DNA of 64,000 nucleotides from Halorussus caseinilyticus (lineage in GTDB: Archaea; Halobacteriota; Halobacteria; Halobacteriales; Haladaptataceae). Both the position numbers and the translations under genes were made by a program. Where the stretch lies: positions 62,001 to 126,000 of the forward strand of contig NZ_CP119810.1 in assembly GCF_029338395.1 (NCBI RefSeq), given 5' to 3'. The notes beneath the pieces are model-generated. The model made no database searches. It saw only the letters and a program-made list of their open reading frames with translations, and was not told the origin of the DNA. Shown piece after piece: positions 17,314 to 60,942 of this stretch (within the stretch, counting starts at the first letter, position 1; every line of letters begins with the position of its first letter).

Positions 17314-17706
17314 ATTCTCCTCCTTACTGTATAGTACGGGACCCACACTGAAGCGGTTTGTCCCTTCAGAAGCAAGGTCTTAGAACGGAATAGAATTAAG
17401 AGATAAAAGAAAACGCGGTTTCGATTTTAGATAGTAGGTGTCGTCGTAGTCGTCGCCGAATACACAGCACGGACACTCGTTCCGCGTCGAACGCCCAACG
17501 CGACCTGTGACGACTACCGAACGCGCGTCCGTCCGGCGCTCAGAGACAACAAATACAGTCTTAAAGCAACTTTTTCAGTTCTTTAGTAATTGTAATTGTT
17601 TCTTGGCGGGTGCTCCCGCGCAACCGACCGCGTACGCTCGGGACTCCGAATCGGCACTGCCGATTCGGAGTCCCGAGCGCGGGAAGAAATCCGAGAGCGC
17701 GAACGG
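17314..17706. other. Intergenic region between copA and the secreted protease
   Basis: It holds the copA promoter and leader (AT-rich from about 17390 to 17430) and, at its right end, a very long hairpin described separately. No coding frame is convincing. Confidence 0.5.
17635..17679 (-). terminator. Perfect 22-bp hairpin after the protease gene
   Basis: The sequence from 17635 to 17656 is exactly repeated in inverse from 17658 to 17679, with a single C at the centre. It begins 28 bp past the stop of the minus-strand protease gene, and on that strand is followed by T-rich sequence (17560-17600). It may be a 3'-end structure or terminator. The near-zero loop would favour a cruciform in DNA. 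Confidence 0.5.
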
Positions 17707-21552: not shown

Positions 21553-22839
21553 CTACTCCGCCTCGTCGTGGAGGTGACACGCCGCCGGGTGCCCGGTGGG
21601 GGTCTCGTGGAGTTCCGGCGGGTCGCGCTCGCAAATCGTCTCGAACTCGTCGGCAAGCAGAGCGCGCGCGCCCTCGGCGTCGTCGGCGACCAGCGAGTCG
21701 ATGGCCGACGATAGCACCGCCTCGGCCCCGGAGTCCCCGAGTTCGTCCGGGAGGTCGAATCGCTCGCGGACGACCCGCCGCAGGTCCGCGTCCGAGGCGT
21801 CGGCGTCGGTCGTGCGCGCCGACTCCCGGAGCGTCTCGGCGTCGAAGTCGTCGCCTGCGAGCGCGACCCGGAAGTCCATCACGGCCCGCCAGTCGGCCTG
21901 CTCGAAGTCGTAGCCCTCGGGCGGAACGACTTCGGGACAGCGCGTGTGGAACCGACACCCCGAAGGCGGGTCCGACGGCGAGGGCACGTCTCCGGAGAGG
22001 CGCGCACCCCCGCCTCGCTGGTCGGGGTCGGGCGCGGGCACCGACGACACCAGCGCCCGCGTGTAGGGATGTCGGGGGTCGGCCAGCACCTCGTCGGTGG
22101 GTCCGAGTTCCACGATTTCGCCCAGATACATGACAGCCACCCGGTCGCATATCTCGCGGACGACGGCCATGTCGTGGCTGATGAGCAGGATTCCGAGGTC
22201 GAACTCGCGCTGGAGGTCGGCCAGCAACGAGAGGATTCCGGCCTGCACCGACACGTCAAGCGCCGAGACGGGTTCGTCGGCGACCAGCAGGTCGGGATTC
22301 AAGACGAGGGAGCGCGCGAGGGCGGCGCGCTGTTTCTGGCCGCCGGAGAACTCGTGGGGGTAGCGGTCGGCGTCGTCGGCCGACAGGCCCACTCGCTCCA
22401 GCAGGTCGGCGACGATTTCGCGCCGCCGAGTTCTATCGTCGAGGCCGTGAATCGCGAGTGGTTCGGCCACCGACTCGCCGACGGTCATCCGCGGGTCGAA
22501 ACTCGACGTGGGGTCCTGAAACACCATCCCGACCCGTCGCCGGAAGTCCCGGCGGTCGGCGTCGTCGCGGCCCGCGACCGGGGTCCCGTCGAACGAGACC
22601 CGCCCGGCGGTCGGATTCTCCAGTCCCATCAGGGTCGTGGCGACGGTCGATTTGCCGCATCCGGACTCGCCGACCAGTCCGACCGTCTCGCCGCGCGCCA
22701 CGTCGAAGCTCACGCCGTCCACCGCCCGGATTCTGCCGGTTTCTCGGTTGAGCGGTCCCTCGGTGACGGGGTAGTGCTTCGTCAGGTCTCGGACCGACAG
22801 CAGAGAGTCTGTCAGCGGGTCTGTCGGCGAGTCAGTCAT
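21553..22839 (-). CDS. dppF: Peptide ABC transporter ATP-binding protein (DppF-like)
   Basis: 428 residues. Walker A in GLVGESGCGKST, Q-loop in GMVFQDPTSSFDPRMTVG, signature HEFSGGQKQRAALARSL, Walker B VADEPVSALD and H-switch SHDMAV. The oligopeptide-transporter C-terminal zinc/iron-like motif is present (GCRFHTRCPE), followed by an unusual ~110-residue C-terminal extension rich in Asp/Glu. It starts at ATG 22839, overlapping the upstream dppD-like gene by 8 bp. Together with dppD and the two permeases it powers peptide import. Last gene of the minus-strand operon. Confidence 0.93.
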   Translation of the reverse strand: MTDSPTDPLTDSLLSVRDLTKHYPVTEGPLNRETGRIRAVDGVSFDVARGETVGLVGESGCGKSTVATTLMGLENPTAGRVSFDGTPVAGRDDADRRDFRRRVGMVFQDPTSSFDPRMTVGESVAEPLAIHGLDDRTRRREIVADLLERVGLSADDADRYPHEFSGGQKQRAALARSLVLNPDLLVADEPVSALDVSVQAGILSLLADLQREFDLGILLISHDMAVVREICDRVAVMYLGEIVELGPTDEVLADPRHPYTRALVSSVPAPDPDQRGGGARLSGDVPSPSDPPSGCRFHTRCPEVVPPEGYDFEQADWRAVMDFRVALAGDDFDAETLRESARTTDADASDADLRRVVRERFDLPDELGDSGAEAVLSSAIDSLVADDAEGARALLADEFETICERDPPELHETPTGHPAACHLHDEAE

Positions 22840-23953
22840 CGTCGCCCTCCCTCGTGACCGCGGCGGCGGAGACCGACTCGGCGAGGTCGGCGGGGTCGGG
22901 GAGGTCCGCGGGGTCGCGGTCCGGGCCGTAGAACACGCACGAAGCGCAGTGGTCGGCGGCGTTCTCGGACTCCGGGTCAGTCCCGTACAGCGGAGGTTGG
23001 TCGCCGGACTCGCACGCGGCGACGGAGGCGGTGCATCGCGGGTGGAACCGACAGCCATCGGGCGGGTCGGTCGGGTCGATGGGGTCGCCCGGAATCGGGT
23101 CGAGCGCCGACCCCACGCCCGGCAGACAGCCCATCAGAGCGCGGGTGTAGGGGTGGCTCGGCGAGTCGAAGACTTCCGAGACGCCGCCGCGTTCCATCAC
23201 CTTCCCGCCGTACATGACGACGATTTGGTCCGCGACCTGCGCGGCGACCCCGAGGTCGTGGGTGACGAACAGGACGCCAACGTCGCGTTCCTCGCGGAGT
23301 TCGCCCAAGAGGTCGAGGATTTGGGCCTGAATCGTCACGTCGAGCGCCGTGGTGGGTTCGTCGCAGACGAGGAGTTCGGGGTCGCCCGAGAGCGCCATGG
23401 CGATGACGACGCGCTGTTTCATCCCGCCCGAGAACTCGTGAGGGTAGTCGTCGTACCGGGCCGCGGCCTCCGGGATGCCCACCCTGTCGAGCAGGTCGAT
23501 TGCCACCTCGCGGGGCGACTCGTCGGACAGGTCCGACGAGTCGCGGTTTCGCACGACGGCCTCCCGGAGTTGCGCGCCGACGGAGTACACCGGGTCGAGT
23601 GCGCCCTGCGGGTTCTGGAAGACGTGGGCGATTCGCTCGCCGCGAACGTCGCGGAGTTCCGACTCCGAGAGGTCGAGCAGGTTCCGGCCGTCGAACCGGA
23701 TTTCGCCGTCGAGGTCCGCGGGGACGAGGCGGGTGAGTGCTTCGCAGGTGACGGTCTTTCCCGACCCCGACTCGCCGACGAGACAGACCGTCTCGCCCGC
23801 GTGGAGGTCGAAGCTCACGCCGTCCACCGCGCGGACTTCGCCCGACCCGGCACCGCCCGACTCGTCCGCGCCCGAACCCCCATCGCTCTCCGCGCCCGGT
23901 TCGCCAGCGAACCGGGCGCGGAGATTCCGGACCGACAGCAGGGGGTCGCTCAT
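22832..23953 (-). CDS. dppD: Peptide ABC transporter ATP-binding protein (DppD-like)
   Basis: 373 residues. Walker A CLVGESGSGKTVT, Q-loop HVFQNPQGALDPV, signature HEFSGGMKQRVVIAMAL, Walker B VCDEPTTALD, H-switch THDLGV and the C-terminal GCRFHPRCTA Cys motif. An inserted Gly/Ser/Glu-rich loop follows strand 1 (residues ~17-38). It starts at ATG 23953, overlapping dppC by four bases (ATGA), so it is translationally coupled. It pairs with DppF as the heterodimeric motor. Confidence 0.93.
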   Translation of the reverse strand: MSDPLLSVRNLRARFAGEPGAESDGGSGADESGGAGSGEVRAVDGVSFDLHAGETVCLVGESGSGKTVTCEALTRLVPADLDGEIRFDGRNLLDLSESELRDVRGERIAHVFQNPQGALDPVYSVGAQLREAVVRNRDSSDLSDESPREVAIDLLDRVGIPEAAARYDDYPHEFSGGMKQRVVIAMALSGDPELLVCDEPTTALDVTIQAQILDLLGELREERDVGVLFVTHDLGVAAQVADQIVVMYGGKVMERGGVSEVFDSPSHPYTRALMGCLPGVGSALDPIPGDPIDPTDPPDGCRFHPRCTASVAACESGDQPPLYGTDPESENAADHCASCVFYGPDRDPADLPDPADLAESVSAAAVTREGDDD

Positions 23954-25173
23954 CGATGCCCCCCGTCGGAGTGGCCGTCGGTTCGCGGGTCCAGCACGTC
24001 CCGGAGCGCATCGCCGAGGAGGTTGAGCGAGACCACGGTAGCGACGAGAAAGCCGACCGGCGCGGCCACGCCCCACCACACCAGCGTCGGGAAGTTGTCG
24101 TCGTGGATGCTGGTCTCGACGAGGTAGCCCCACGACTGGCCCTGCATCGGGCCGAGACCGAGGTACGACAGCGTGGTCTCCACGATGAGGAGCATCGGAA
24201 TCTGGAGCGTGATGGCCGTCACCACCGCGTTCGAGACGTTGGGCATCAGGTGGCGGCGGACGACCGCGAGGCGACTACTCCCGGCGGCGCGGGCGGCCCT
24301 CACGTACCCGGTTTCGCGCTTCTTGAGCGCCTCGCTCCGGACGAGTCGGGCGACCCCGCCCCAGTTGAGCAGGCCGAAGACGACGACCATCAGCAGGAGG
24401 CTTCCGCCGTAGACGACCTGCGCGACGAGGTAGACGAAGAAGGCGGGGATGACCTGCTGGAGGTCCACGTAGCGCATCAACAGCGAATCGACCCGACCGC
24501 CGAACTGGGCCGCGACGGTGCCGACGACGGTGGCGACGGGGACGAGAATCATCCCGGAGACGAACGCGAGTTTCAACTCGACGCGCGCGCCGCGGGCCAC
24601 GAACGCCAGCACGTCCTTGCCGGTGTTGGTCGTCCCGAGAGGGTGGAGCAGGGTCCCCCAGCACTTCCCGTTCGAGACCGGACCGTGGCAGGTCGTGACC
24701 GCGAACTCCGAGACGCTGGTGCCGACCGGTGGCTGGTAGATGGGGATGCCGTACCGGGACTCGGCCGCGCCCATCCCCATCGGCGCGGTCTCGGGGTCGC
24801 CCAGAATCACCGGCCCGACCAGCGCGAAGAGGACGAAAAAGACCAACCATCCGAGGCTGGCGACGGCGAGTCGGTCTTGCCGGAGTTGCCGCCAGTAGCG
24901 CCGCGTCAGTTGCCGGTTGCGCGCCAGCGGAACCACGACGTAGCACGCGAACGCCGCGACCCCGACCAGCGAAAGCCAGTCGAGCGGCGTCGGCGACCAC
25001 CCGGCCGCCAGCGGTCCGTCGGCGACGAGGTAGTCGTAGGCGAACGCCGCGAGGAGGAGACCGACCGCCGCCAGAAACGCGAGGGTCCGCGCCGCCGGAA
25101 GTCGCCGCCCGCGGTCCACCGCCGACCAATCGACCGACTCGAACGTCGCCCGGTCGCCGGAGTCGGTCGCCAC
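23950..25173 (-). CDS. dppC: Peptide ABC transporter permease (DppC-like)
   Basis: 407 residues with a GTG start at 25173. Six transmembrane helices; the N-terminal extension carries two helices with RRLPAARTLAFLAAVG, and later helices include FVSGMILVPVATVVGTVAAQ. The EAA motif is recognisable (RAARAAGSSRLAVVRRHLMPN). Longer than usual DppC (~300), with an extra N-terminal membrane segment. It is first in the dppC-D-F operon on the minus strand. A 16-codon ORF ends 3 bp before its start. Its partner DppB is encoded on the other strand, across a CRISPR array. Confidence 0.9.
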   Translation of the reverse strand: MATDSGDRATFESVDWSAVDRGRRLPAARTLAFLAAVGLLLAAFAYDYLVADGPLAAGWSPTPLDWLSLVGVAAFACYVVVPLARNRQLTRRYWRQLRQDRLAVASLGWLVFFVLFALVGPVILGDPETAPMGMGAAESRYGIPIYQPPVGTSVSEFAVTTCHGPVSNGKCWGTLLHPLGTTNTGKDVLAFVARGARVELKLAFVSGMILVPVATVVGTVAAQFGGRVDSLLMRYVDLQQVIPAFFVYLVAQVVYGGSLLLMVVVFGLLNWGGVARLVRSEALKKRETGYVRAARAAGSSRLAVVRRHLMPNVSNAVVTAITLQIPMLLIVETTLSYLGLGPMQGQSWGYLVETSIHDDNFPTLVWWGVAAPVGFLVATVVSLNLLGDALRDVLDPRTDGHSDGGHR

Positions 25174-25176
25174 GGG

Positions 25177-25227
25177 CTACCGCACCTCCCGCGAGACGGT
25201 CGCCCGCCGAAGTACGTACGCTGACAT
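25177..25227 (-). CDS. 16-codon ORF before dppC: leader peptide or scar of a deleted dppB
   Basis: ATG at 25227 to TAG at 25177, giving MSAYVLRRATVSREVR, three bases before the dppC GTG. Its start resembles DppB N-termini (M-S-x-Y-V-L-R-R), and DppB C-termini often end in short charged tails after DPR. The normal gene order is dppB-dppC, so the ORF sits exactly where dppB would be. It could be what is left after nearly all of dppB was deleted, or a coupling leader. Both readings are inference. Confidence 0.3.
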   Translation of the reverse strand: MSAYVLRRATVSREVR

Positions 25228-25332
25228 TTGATTTGCGAAGTCATAGCAAGATTACTAAAGGGTTTGGATTGGCGGCGGAGCGAGGGGTTCCGGGACAGCC
25301 GACGACGTAGACGAGTACGACCTCGGGAACCA

Positions 25333-25591
25333 GTTTCAATCCCGTGGTGGGTTTTCTGGGTCCTGCAACATCCGACAGTCGATATTGGTCCCGGCAGTAT
25401 CTTTCGACCGGTTTCAATCCCGTGGTGGGTTTTCTGGGTCCTGCAACCTGACTGGGGTTGTCGCGCTGGATGACCCACCAGTCGAGGTTTCAATCCCGTG
25501 GTGGGTTTTCTGGGTCCTGCAACGACCGAAGACAGCGTACCAGCCTTCGCGGATGTTTCAATCCCGTGGTGGGTTTTCTGGGTCCTGCAAC
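25333..25591 (-). CRISPR. Short CRISPR array, four identical 37-nt repeats and three spacers, no cas genes
   Basis: Repeats at 25333-25369, 25411-25447, 25487-25523 and 25555-25591 are identical over 37 nt, starting GTTTCAATCCCGTGG and ending GGGTCCTGCAAC. Spacers are 41, 39 and 31 nt (25370-25410, 25448-25486, 25524-25554) and unrelated to one another. Read on the minus strand the repeat ends in GGGATTGAAAC, matching the usual archaeal crRNA 5' handle. Transcription therefore probably runs on minus, with the leader at the right (25592 onward). No cas gene lies in the window. I saw no match of a spacer elsewhere in the window. Confidence 0.93.
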
Positions 25592-26005
25592 GGGGGGTGA
25601 TATTTCGCCCATAGCCGAAATAAAGCTTTCTCACGCGCTCGAATCGACTCCGCGCTTCGTGGACCCCCGCTGTACACGGACCTTAAAAAGGTCCACGAAG
25701 ACCGGCAGGCCGCGCCGACGGCGATTCGCCGTCGGCGCGGACAGACTTCGCTGGCCGACAGCGACCGCTGACGGGCGACTCCCACCGACCATCGCGACGA
25801 ATCCGGTCCATCGCGCCTCGGCGTCGTCGTCTGTAGGCGACGACGCCGAGGCGGCAGGGACAGGCAAACAATTCCTTAAACAATGTATAGAATTGTTAAA
25901 GACATGTTTTTATCCCTTTACTACGGAGTCCGTTCGCCGACCCCCGCGAGTCGTATCAGGACGGTAAACTTTAACAATCCGGTGTGAGATTCACAGCCAA
26001 GACCC
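25592..26005. other. Hairpin-rich non-coding region between CRISPR array and dppB
   Basis: This 414-bp stretch has no gene but holds strong inverted repeats. 25678-25694: GGACCTT-AAA-AAGGTCC, which competes with a longer pairing of 25655-25665 with 25690-25700. 25710-25740: 14-bp perfect stem, ATT loop. 25748-25764: TCGCTG/CAGCGA. 25815-25852: 15-bp perfect stem, 8-nt loop. AT-rich sequence follows (25866-25920), likely the dppB promoter. By orientation it is also where a CRISPR leader should lie. Confidence 0.6.
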
Positions 26006-26995
26006 GTGAACGACACCCACTGGTTCCTCCTCAAGCGAGTCGCGTGGACGGCGTTTGCCGCCTACCTGATACTCTCGGGGGCGTTCTTCGTCTTCGCGTA
26101 CACGCCCGACCCGAACGAGGCCCTCGTCTCGTTCGCGGCCGCGGACCCGAGCGACCCCGCGAACATGTCCGAGGACTCCAAGCAGGCCGTCGCCGCCTAC
26201 GAACAGGCCCGGAACTACGACGAACCCGTCTTCCAGCGGTACGCCGACTGGATGGTGGGGTACGCTACCCTCGACTGGGGCCGGTCGGTGACGACTGGCG
26301 GACCCGTCACCGACGCGCTGGCCGACCGCATCCCGGTGACGCTGGCGTATCTCGTGCCCGCCGTCGTCGTCTCGACGCTACTGGGCGTCGGCGTGGGGCT
26401 GGTCTCGGCGATGCGACCGAACGGCGTCGTTGACCGGGTGAGCGCGGCGCTGAGTTACGTCGGACTCGGCGTGCCGGGGTTCGTCCTCGGCGAACTCCTG
26501 TTGGTCGCGTCCATCCTTCACTTCTCGTGGTATCGGGCGTACTACGACCCGCGGTACGGTCTCTGGACCGCAGAGAATCTGGTCTCGCTGGCGCTCCCGG
26601 CGTTCGTGGTCGCGCTGAACCTGTTGGCGGCCCAAGCGCGCTACGCCCGCGCGGAGTCCCGCGAGTACCTGCTCGCCGAGTTCGTCAAGACTCTGCGGGC
26701 CAGCGGTGCCGACGCTCGGACCATCGGCCGCCACGTCCTACGAAACGCCGCGCTACCGCTGTTGACGGTGTTCTTCGCCGAACTGCTCACCGTGCTGTTT
26801 CTGACCGTCTACGTCGTGGAAGTCGTGTTCCGGGTTCCGGGCGTCGGCCAGTTGGCGTATCAGGCCATCGAGCAGCGGGACATCGGTCTGATTCTGGCGA
26901 CGACGCTCCTCCCGGCGTTCGTCGCGCTACTGGGGAACCTGTTTCAGGACTTCGCGTACACCCTGCTGGACCCGCGGGTCGGCGACGAGACGTAG
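26006..26995 (+). CDS. dppB: Peptide ABC transporter permease (DppB-like)
   Basis: 329 residues with a GTG start at 26006. First helix near the N-terminus (VAWTAFAAYLILSGAFFVFA), an external loop, then five helices including VTLAYLVPAVVVSTLLGVGV. The EAA loop reads LRASGADARTIGRHVLRNAALPLL. The C-terminus ends in LLDPRVGDET. It forms the membrane channel with DppC. It is divergent from dppC, D and F, separated by the CRISPR array, which is unlike the usual dppBCDF order. Confidence 0.9.
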   Translation: MNDTHWFLLKRVAWTAFAAYLILSGAFFVFAYTPDPNEALVSFAAADPSDPANMSEDSKQAVAAYEQARNYDEPVFQRYADWMVGYATLDWGRSVTTGGPVTDALADRIPVTLAYLVPAVVVSTLLGVGVGLVSAMRPNGVVDRVSAALSYVGLGVPGFVLGELLLVASILHFSWYRAYYDPRYGLWTAENLVSLALPAFVVALNLLAAQARYARAESREYLLAEFVKTLRASGADARTIGRHVLRNAALPLLTVFFAELLTVLFLTVYVVEVVFRVPGVGQLAYQAIEQRDIGLILATTLLPAFVALLGNLFQDFAYTLLDPRVGDET

Positions 26996-27005
26996 AGCAG
27001 AGCGT

Positions 27006-27596
27006 TCAGGCCGCTTCCTTCAGGTCCTCGTAGCGTTCTTCGAACTGCGACTGGCACGACGAACAGCAGAACTGGTAGAGTTCACCGTCGATGTGCGAGG
27101 ATTCGCCCTCGCTGGTGACGGAGTTGCCACACTCGTCGCACTCCAGCGCGAACTCGACGCCGCGCGGTTCGGGGTGCCACGCCGAGTCTTCGAGCAGTTT
27201 CACGTCGTACTCGCGCACCGCGTCGATGTCGATGGCGTCCGTGAGTAGCGGTTCGACCGCCCCGTCTCGGAGGCGAGCGTGGAAGATGACGTTGCCGTCG
27301 GCAGTCACGAAGAGGTGTTCGACGCCGTCGATGCCTTCGACGCCGTTCCGGACCTCCGAGACGCGGCCGGGTTCGACGTGGAGGTCCACGAGGACTGCAA
27401 CTCCGTCCGAGAGGAGCGACCGGTCTAAGTCCACCGTGAACCGCTTGACGACGCCGAGGTCCCGGAGTCGGTCGATGCGGTCCGAGACGGTCGGTGGCGA
27501 GAGGTTCACCGCGTCCGCGATTTCGTTGTACGGTCGGCGGGCGTCCGCAACCAGCAGTTGCAGAATTTCGAGGTCGGTTTCGTCGAGTTCTCGCAT
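27006..27596 (-). CDS. Lrp/AsnC regulator with C-terminal TRASH metal-binding domain (CopT-like)
   Basis: 196 residues. N-terminal AsnC helix-turn-helix (DETDLEILQLLVADARRPYNEIADAVNLSPPTVSDRIDRLRDLGVV), middle regulatory strands, and a C-terminal TRASH domain with Cys pairs (LECDECGNSV, QFCCSSCQSQFEERY). This fusion is known in archaea as a copper (heavy metal) responsive regulator of Cu-ATPase genes. ATG 27596 is preferred to the TTG six bases upstream. copA is 10 kb away, not adjacent. Likely target: copA and other copper genes (inference). It is convergent with dppB, 10 bp apart. Confidence 0.88.
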   Translation of the reverse strand: MRELDETDLEILQLLVADARRPYNEIADAVNLSPPTVSDRIDRLRDLGVVKRFTVDLDRSLLSDGVAVLVDLHVEPGRVSEVRNGVEGIDGVEHLFVTADGNVIFHARLRDGAVEPLLTDAIDIDAVREYDVKLLEDSAWHPEPRGVEFALECDECGNSVTSEGESSHIDGELYQFCCSSCQSQFEERYEDLKEAA

Positions 27597-28045
27597 TATC
27601 AAAGGGATTATCCCCCCATCATAGAAACACCTTTCGTCATATCACGGAAGTAGTGTGAGAAATCAAGAAGGAGTCGCCGTACGGGTCAATTCCGTAGTTT
27701 AGGCGTGCGAGCGTACGGTACGGTCTCTCTCACTCTGCTTGCACCGGATTGCGCTCCGCACGGGCCTGCTCGATTCGCTCCCGGAGGGCGGCGTTGAGGT
27801 GGCGGCGCGGCCCGAGACGGCGGCGCGGCCGGAGGCGATACCGCGGCCGGGAGTCGGGCCGCGATTTCGGGTGCCGACCGGTCGGCGACTTCGAAGTCGT
27901 AGCGCGCGACTCGGACCCCAGCGACCGTCTCGCGCGCGCGCACGTCCACCCCGGCGGCGCGTGAGAACCGACACGTCGCGGTCCGGGGTGTCTCGCTCTC
28001 GGAGACGGCGACTCGACCGGCGACGGTGGACGTGGAGTCCGTCCT

Positions 28046-45643: not shown

Positions 45644-45715
45644 ATCGACTCGCCAATCGACTCGCCAATCGACTCGCCAATCGACTCGCCAATCGACTCG
45701 CCAATCGACTCGTCG
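45644..45715 (+). repeat. 12-bp tandem repeat (ATCGACTCGCCA)
   Basis: Five perfect 12-bp units at 45644-45703 followed by a sixth, partial unit, just after the LLM gene. Pure repeat with no variants, so it likely grows and shrinks by slippage. Because 12 is a multiple of 3 and the units lack stops, the frame stays open in all three plus frames, but no start fits. Confidence 0.9.
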
Positions 45716-56290: not shown

Positions 56291-56595
56291 GAGTCTGTTG
56301 GTAAGGTGGTCCGATAGATAAACCCTGCGTGGCTATTCCGTGTCACGATTCCGAGACGCGGCGCGTCGTGCGTTCGACTCCGGAAATTCCGCCCGTTCGC
56401 CACGGCGGTGCGGTCCCCGCGAGCGACCGGTAGGACCGGCGACGGTTCCGCCGAGGCACGCCGAAATCGTCGGACTCGCGGACGCGCGGCCGAGCATCCG
56501 CTCGGCCGCGCGTCCGCCGGGAAAACAGAGCGCGACGTTGAGCAAATAAATATATTTCTATAAGAAAATTAAATACGTCCGAGAGAAATCTATAG
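56291..56595. other. Intergenic region with an 18-bp perfect hairpin
   Basis: 56478-56517 is GCGGACGCGCGGCCGAGC paired with GCTCGGCCGCGCGTCCGC across ATCC. It is followed by an AT-rich block (56543-56580). It lies after the minus-strand RecA-like gene (read left) and upstream of tfb. Possible terminator or structured leader; no gene seen. Confidence 0.5.
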
Positions 56596-59160: not shown

Positions 59161-60942
59161 TCAGTCGTCGGCGTCGGCTTCCGGCGACCAGTCGCCCAAG
59201 GTGCGCTGGACCGCCTCCTCGCCGACCGCTCGGGCCAGCGTCTCGAAGCCAGCGCGCTCGGCGCGCTCGTCCGCGCCCGCGAGCAGGCGCGAGACGATGA
59301 ACTCCGGCGTGGACTTGCCGACCGTGCCGAACCGGGGCTGGTAGTCCACTTCGAGTTCGAGGTCCTCGTCCAACCCCTCCGCGAAGATGCCGTCCTTTCG
59401 AGCCTTCTCGGGCAAAGGTTTGAGGTCGTCGGCGAGGTGGGTGACGAACACCCCGAGCGCCCCGCGGTCCACGGTGAGTCGGACGAGTCCGTGGAGCAGG
59501 TCGGCGGCGCTTCCGGGTTCGGTGATGGCCTCGAACTCGTCCACCAGCATCAGGGTGTTCGCGCCGTCGGTTAGCGGCGGGACGATGCTCCGGAGCGTCG
59601 ATTCCAGCACGCCAGCGTTGAAACTCGCGTGTCTGCGGTGGAACACGATGTCCTCGGAGATGGAGACTTCCGCGCGCTCGGCGGGCACGGGCAGGCCCAT
59701 CTGGGCGAGCAGGGCAACCTGACACATGGTTTCGAGCAGGGTCGTCTTCCCCCCGGAGTTCGCGCCGGTCAGGACCGACACCCGGTCGCCGTCGGGCGGT
59801 GCGGGGTCGGCCGACCCCGCACCGCCCGCGCCGGACACGCCGTGGTCGCCGACGGCGTAGGTGACGGGTTGGACCGACTCGTCGCTGGCTTCGATGGAGA
59901 CGTTCCGGGCGTTCCGGACCGCGAAGCCGTCGTCGGTGAACGTCGGGCGGGTGAGGTCGAAGTCGTGAGCGAACCGGGCCAGCGAGAGGTGGAAGGCGAG
60001 GTCCGAGACGGCCGACTTCGCGGCGTCGATGGCCTCGCGGTTCTCGGCGATGCGGCCCCGGAGTCGCCGGGCGACCGACCGCTCGCGCTCTTCGACTTCC
60101 TCCCGGAGGTCGGCGGTCAGTTCGCGGAGCGTGGCCGTCACGAAGTCGGTGGCGTCCACGGCGTCGTCGGGCGTGGCGTCACGGACCCGCTGGAATCCGG
60201 CGTCGGTCTCGCTCGCCACGTAGTCCACGACGACTTCGCCGAACTCCGCCCCGGCGCGGGCCTCCTCGCGTATCTCCTCCATCGCGTCGAGCGAGTCCGC
60301 CGAGAGGCTCTCGACGCTCGCTACGGAGTCGCGCAGGTCGTCGAGTTCGTCGTCAACGCCGCGGGCCACGTCGCCGCCGTCGAGGTCCGAGAGCGCCGAC
60401 GCCGCGGCGTCGAGGGCGTTCCGGTCGATGTCGGCCACGCGAGAGAACGCGCCCTCGGAGAGTCCGGCCTCGCGCAGGGCGAGGACGGTCCGGACCGCCG
60501 CCTCTTCGTCGCCGATGCGGTCGTCCTCGGCGAACTCGGCGAACGCCGACAGGACTTCCTCGCGGGTCTCGCCGTCCAGTCCGGCCCACGACTCGGCGGC
60601 GTCCATCACCGAGTCAAGGCGCTTCTCGGCGGCCTCGCGCTCCATCAGCGGCGTCAGCACCCGCATTCGGTCGGCGGCGTCCTCGGTCACGGCGTAGTCG
60701 CTGGCCACGTCGAGCAGTTCCTTGTAGACGGCGCGGGTGTCGCGCGTCGAGAGGACCGACATGCCCTCGCCGCCGTTGGCCCGCCGGAGGATTCGGGTCG
60801 CGCGCCCGCGAGACAACCCCGCCGAGACGAGCGCCCGGACCTCGCCGGACTCGATGGCTTCCACCGCGCGCTCGGTGCCCAACTCGGCGTCGAGACGCTC
60901 GCGCGTCTTGGGTCCGACCCCCCAGTACTCCTCCAGTCGCAT
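59161..60942 (-). CDS. MutS-related ATPase with N-terminal HhH-like region
   Basis: 593 residues from ATG 60942. MRLEEYWGVGPKTRERLDAELG begins with a helix-hairpin-helix-like motif. A long helical core (lever/clamp-like) follows. The MutS C-terminal ATPase has Walker A VLTGANSGGKTTLLETM, Walker B TLMLVDEFEAITEP and FVTHLADDLKPLPEKA. The mismatch-reading domain I of MutS1 is absent, so it is closer to archaeal MutS-like/MutS2-type proteins. Likely acts on DNA junctions or recombination intermediates rather than mismatches. Confidence 0.87.
   Translation of the reverse strand: MRLEEYWGVGPKTRERLDAELGTERAVEAIESGEVRALVSAGLSRGRATRILRRANGGEGMSVLSTRDTRAVYKELLDVASDYAVTEDAADRMRVLTPLMEREAAEKRLDSVMDAAESWAGLDGETREEVLSAFAEFAEDDRIGDEEAAVRTVLALREAGLSEGAFSRVADIDRNALDAAASALSDLDGGDVARGVDDELDDLRDSVASVESLSADSLDAMEEIREEARAGAEFGEVVVDYVASETDAGFQRVRDATPDDAVDATDFVTATLRELTADLREEVEERERSVARRLRGRIAENREAIDAAKSAVSDLAFHLSLARFAHDFDLTRPTFTDDGFAVRNARNVSIEASDESVQPVTYAVGDHGVSGAGGAGSADPAPPDGDRVSVLTGANSGGKTTLLETMCQVALLAQMGLPVPAERAEVSISEDIVFHRRHASFNAGVLESTLRSIVPPLTDGANTLMLVDEFEAITEPGSAADLLHGLVRLTVDRGALGVFVTHLADDLKPLPEKARKDGIFAEGLDEDLELEVDYQPRFGTVGKSTPEFIVSRLLAGADERAERAGFETLARAVGEEAVQRTLGDWSPEADADD

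Follow-up and report, generated by a model that had tools for sequence, protein, structure and literature searches.

An orphan type I-D-like CRISPR array between divergent dppC and dppB genes of Halorussus caseinilyticus, probably left behind when its cas genes were recently lost

A short run of CRISPR repeats lies between two permease genes of a dpp transporter in Halorussus caseinilyticus, raising the questions of how it came to be there and whether any Cas proteins still serve it. The DNA analysed (the window) is a 64,000-nucleotide stretch of contig C2 from a 4.39-Mb haloarchaeal genome, designated G000 in our comparison set. We consider it probable (about 0.85) that these repeats (array A) form an orphan type I-D array whose cognate cas genes were recently lost; an orphan array remaining after cas loss is an already known kind of thing.

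Array A is a complete small leader-array unit

The features of the array and its leader, and two adjacent hairpins, are as follows.

25333..25591, minus strand: type I-D-like CRISPR array A, with three spacers between four identical 37-bp repeats (sequence)
25592..25603, minus strand: conserved end of the leader (ATATCACCCCCC in RNA sense), directly adjoining the first repeat (leader alignment)
25618..25632, minus strand: predicted core promoter of array A (GAGAAAGCTTTATTT: BRE and TATA-like; conserved block in the 16-leader alignment)
25655..25700, minus strand: leader inverted repeat CTTCGTGGACC-N24-GGTCCACGAAG around TTTTTAA (motif search, leader alignment)
25710..25740, no strand: perfect 15-bp hairpin (sequence)
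25814..25853, no strand: perfect 16-bp hairpin (sequence)

An earlier note, made from the sequence of the window, had reported a four-repeat CRISPR array between dppC and dppB, and this was confirmed: the four copies of the repeat (GTTGCAGGACCCAGAAAACCCACCACGGGATTGAAAC in RNA sense; starts at 25333, 25411, 25487 and 25555) are identical, and the three spacers, which measure 31, 39 and 41 nt from the leader end, are each unique. The exact repeat occurs in only two arrays of this genome (A and a second array, B) and a reversed-pattern control gave 0 matches; the repeats far exceed chance expectation.

The leader (25592-25700, minus strand) contains three conserved blocks common to 15 other leaders. 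TCA-CCCCC at the leader end is conserved in 16/16 aligned leaders and probably serves as the integration anchor. The BRE/TATA-like block, located ~30 nt before the first repeat, is a probable core promoter which, judged by its position, would start a transcript just ahead of the first repeat. The inverted repeat has seven copies in the genome (five once contig-end duplicates are removed), is also present in the leaders of relatives with type I-D systems, and may bind Csa3, whose gene adjoins a leader in relatives. Array and leader together (25333-25700) make up a small but complete leader-array unit of type I-D CRISPR-Cas.

The perfect hairpins that had been noted beside the array are real, and have no special tie to it. 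Twelve perfect hairpins with stems of at least 13 bp occur across the window, versus 0 in Markov shuffles, and they therefore characterise the window DNA in general rather than the array; the hairpins at 25710-25740 and 25814-25853 were rejected as CRISPR parts and are probably unrelated to CRISPR. The window also contains long perfect hairpins with stems of 18-22 bp (17635-17679, 23887-23924, 56478-56517 and 59793-59828) and a short tandem repeat of 12-bp units (ATCGACTCGCCA; 45644-45711). An Rfam scan of the window returned no match.

The repeat and leader are linked to type I-D operons in related genomes

In G118, arrays of this repeat flank on both sides an operon matching PADLOC I-D models (Cas10d, Cas7d, Cas5d, Cas3d, Cas4d, Cas1d and Cas2d), and an additional remote array bears the same leader. 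Csc2 scored above the cut-off in 4 of 18 genomes of the genus (G066, G082, G118 and G156), all of which have 28-74 copies of the repeat family in addition to the leader. Among the 14 genomes of the genus without Csc2, the repeat was found only in G000 (35 copies, contig-end duplicates included) and G124 (two relics, both lone repeats). The repeat, a leader and a Cas10d are also present in G031, which belongs to another genus. By its repeat and leader, array A thus belongs with the arrays that accompany Cas10d/Csc2 operons. It shares with the haloarchaeal type I-D arrays of these five genomes (G118, G156, G066, G082 and G031) the 37-bp repeat family ending ATTGAAAC, the spacer lengths, a leader with inverted repeat and TATA-like block, and dispersal over several sites, but differs in that no I-D cas genes were detected in G000 and that array A has only four repeats.

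Several arrays with one common leader type are dispersed over the genome

The repeat family is represented in G000 by four intact arrays (A, B, C and D) and a two-repeat relic (F), all with one common leader type. Arrays A and B are on C2, C is on C1, D is on plasmid C3 and relic F is on plasmid C4; C, D and F were located by searching for the leader inverted repeat, the further copies of which are all followed by arrays of related repeats, and the copy in relic F has more mismatches than those of C and D. Array B (C2:199257-199571; L009 9258-9572) lies between hemG and hemE and consists of four repeats and a truncated one, array C has nine repeats, and array D has seven and is seen twice owing to duplicated contig ends. 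The ends of C3 and C4 overlap head to tail by 43 and 34.5 kb at 99.9% identity (L058/L059, L067/L068 and L099-L106), so these contigs are probably circular plasmids of ~142 and ~116 kb assembled with redundant ends, and duplicate copies on them are not separate arrays; a candidate further array, E, was on this ground rejected as distinct from D.

The I-D cas genes are not detected, and a csa3 stump marks a probable deletion scar

The earlier note saw no cas genes in the window, and no clear one emerged from tblastn of I-D and I-B Cas proteins (a single weak Cas5 match, E 0.008, 37% identity over 70 aa). Followed up with models of Csc2, Cas6 and Cas1, its suggestion to look elsewhere in the genome for cas genes with the same repeat likewise led to none. 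The best match of the Csc2 model to G000 had an E value of only 0.35, the PF10040 Cas6 model had no match, and the Cas1 model had a single match, belonging to a type I-B locus; a complete type I-D system was thus not found, with I-D Csc2, Cas6 and Cas1 all undetected. Cas10d, Csc1 and Cas3d were sought within the retrieved stretches of G000, where Cas10d gave no match. The sole cas system found is the type I-B system on plasmid C4, which shares the genome with array A and, like the missing one, belongs to class 1 and includes Cas4 and Cas1, but its 30-bp repeats are of a different sequence and it shows no sign of serving array A. Near the I-B locus a further array (L013 1429-1836) with a repeat starting GTTACAGACGAACCCGAGTA was observed besides the GTTCCAGATGTACCC arrays.

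Plasmid C4 also carries, at C4:17357-17981 (L067 9357-9982), the C-terminal piece of a csa3 gene, followed by an I-D leader and the two degenerate repeats of relic F. The csa3 piece is 78% identical over 58 aa to Csa3 of G066, with the match starting at residue 145 and joined to unrelated sequence, and a 44-nt motif of the relic F leader is identical to the cas-linked leader of G066. The csa3 stump and relic F, which share the plasmid with the I-B cas genes, probably represent the scar left when an I-D cas locus was deleted.

These results bear on the leading alternative, that array A still works as an immune array with machinery supplied in trans, coming either from an I-D locus missed in the assembly or from the Cas6/Cascade of the plasmid I-B system. 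In favour of this, leader and repeats have stayed whole and free of decay, the genome has an I-B cas set, and the I-D cas loci of relatives can be on smaller contigs (C7 in G118, C4 in G066); as the assembly is nearly but not fully complete (99.74% completeness, 3.77% contamination, five contigs), a plasmid with I-D cas genes could be missing from it. However, the I-B arrays have a different repeat, three I-D components went undetected in an assembly of this completeness, and the csa3 stump points to a real deletion, making service in trans unlikely. The earlier note had left array A as either dependent on a Cas system elsewhere or dead, which is broadly apt; the array stands as an orphan of another system, and the evidence favours a recently orphaned array.

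No target was found for the spacers

Comparison of the three spacers with virus and plasmid sequences, as the earlier note had proposed, yielded no target: the array spacers had a single plasmid match at chance level (E 0.2) among phages and plasmids, and exact or back-translated spacer patterns had no match among viral contigs (IMG/VR). Within their own genome, self-matches aside, the A and B spacers had a best match of 20 nt (E 0.14, chance level), and self-targeting was rejected on this basis. Matches of spacers to the DNA upstream of the dpp genes did not exceed 8 nt.

Anti-cas orphan I-F arrays of E. coli are described in PMC8616872, citing Almendros et al. 2016, and this speaks for the idea that array A has been kept for regulation, through spacer-guided silencing of host genes, blocking of incoming I-D cas genes, or a read-through promoter for dppCDF. 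Array A shares its strand with dppCDF, and the DNA between them lacks any run of at least four T, so that read-through from array A into dppCDF would be possible in terms of sequence. Against regulation stand the chance-level genome matches, the short matches upstream of the dpp genes, and the 22 orphan spacers, which at the I-D loci of five relatives (two or three spacers scoring slightly above) were close to shuffled controls; with no convincing excess over shuffles, anti-cas spacers were rejected, and we regard a regulatory role as very improbable. It is a long shot that the orphan I-D arrays continue to be transcribed and put to use, whether via I-B cross-processing or as an added dppCDF promoter; if true, it would mean that leader-array units outlive cas genes because they keep a job.

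The divergent dppC/dppB layout is ancestral

The transporter genes and their conserved upstream regions are as follows.

21553..23058, minus strand: dppF/oppF-type ABC ATPase, start codon uncertain (Pfam, oligo_HPY)
22832..24133, minus strand: dppD/oppD-type ABC ATPase, start codon uncertain (Pfam, oligo_HPY)
23950..25173, minus strand: dppC/oppC-type permease (Pfam OppC_N and BPD_transp_1)
25174..25280, minus strand: conserved dppC upstream region (TGACATTTGATTTGCGAAGTCATAGCA...TTACTAAA; alignment; kept in three array-less relatives)
25953..26005, plus strand: conserved dppB upstream region (CGTATCAGGACGGTAAACTTTAACAATCCGGTGTGAGATTCACAGCCA; intergenic alignment with relatives)
26006..26995, plus strand: dppB/oppB-type permease (Pfam BPD_transp_1)

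dppC and dppB are divergent and 832 bp apart, and both ABC ATPases, each with an oligo_HPY domain, are downstream of dppC. The dppB orthologs of three relatives of the same genus (G114, G176 and G124) are 85-86% identical, dppC is divergent from dppB in all three, and CRISPR repeats are absent from their dppC/dppB intergenic regions (~237 bp in G114 and G176, ~600 bp in G124); several more distant dpp homologs are divergent as well. The layout is therefore ancestral, and the split dpp transporter is an old, ordinary arrangement. The reading in the earlier note, that a dppBCDF operon had been broken by an inversion or transposition, with a CRISPR fragment staying behind at the breakpoint, can draw on homologous permease pairs of the genus that are co-directional (e.g. 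loci L035 and L037), but is scarcely tenable given the divergent, array-free orthologs with conserved upstream regions that the comparison with related species brought to light, the kind of finding that the note itself had named as refuting its reading. For the window itself, the supposed operon break is thus removed as a false lead.

In the intergenic alignment of the four genomes, the dppC-side and dppB-side blocks are kept in 4/4, while the middle consists of array A and flanking DNA in G000, unrelated DNA in G124 and nearly nothing in G114 and G176. As only the middle differs, it evidently tolerates insertions. On this alignment array A reads as an addition between two conserved upstream regions, for which an inversion is unneeded. 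An AsnC-type regulator with a C-terminal TRASH domain (27006-27602, minus strand) adjoins dppB and may regulate the dpp transporter.

Loss of the I-D cas genes appears recent

The non-terminal repeats of arrays A-D show zero differences within each array (~740 nt), while the four-fold sites of dppB are 29-32% different from those of G114, G176 and G124; loss of the I-D cas genes therefore looks recent, unless gene conversion kept the repeats uniform. The uniformity of the repeats might also stem from gene conversion, or from maintenance that some unseen system still provides. The hemG/hemE site of array B is also the site of a 27-repeat array in G156 (L107), and in G124 a lone repeat occupies the position of array C; some of the remote arrays therefore probably predate these species.

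In the orphan-array reading that we favour, array A, set within the intergenic region of an ancestrally divergent gene pair, would be one of several I-D arrays dispersed over the genome that a single I-D cas locus (Csa3, Cas6, Cas10d, Csc2, Csc1, Cas3, Cas4, Cas1 and Cas2) formerly served in trans, as is probably still the case for similar dispersed arrays in G118 and G156. Recent deletion of that locus would have left the csa3 stump and two degenerate repeats on plasmid C4, and the arrays would therefore be orphans. Array A would be transcribed on the minus strand from the BRE/TATA-like block, but crRNA processing is not expected because no I-D Cas6 was found, and the array is presumably now inactive. 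The E. coli I-F CRISPR4 orphan array (Almendros et al. 2016, as described in PMC8616872) is alike in that a small array persists where the cognate cas genes are lost, whereas the present case is archaeal and type I-D, several arrays with full leaders remain, and no anti-cas spacers were found.

G000 would accordingly preserve, in one genome, the remnants just after CRISPR-Cas loss, namely intact leader-array units at separate sites and a csa3 deletion scar, with relatives representing other stages (an intact system, lone repeats, or nothing). Remote arrays can keep one chromosomal site across species, as at hemG/hemE. At C7:46208 of G124 (L070 1501), a deletion relic lies next to a photolyase-like gene: half of the leader inverted repeat (TTCGTGGACC) joined without a gap to a single I-D repeat.
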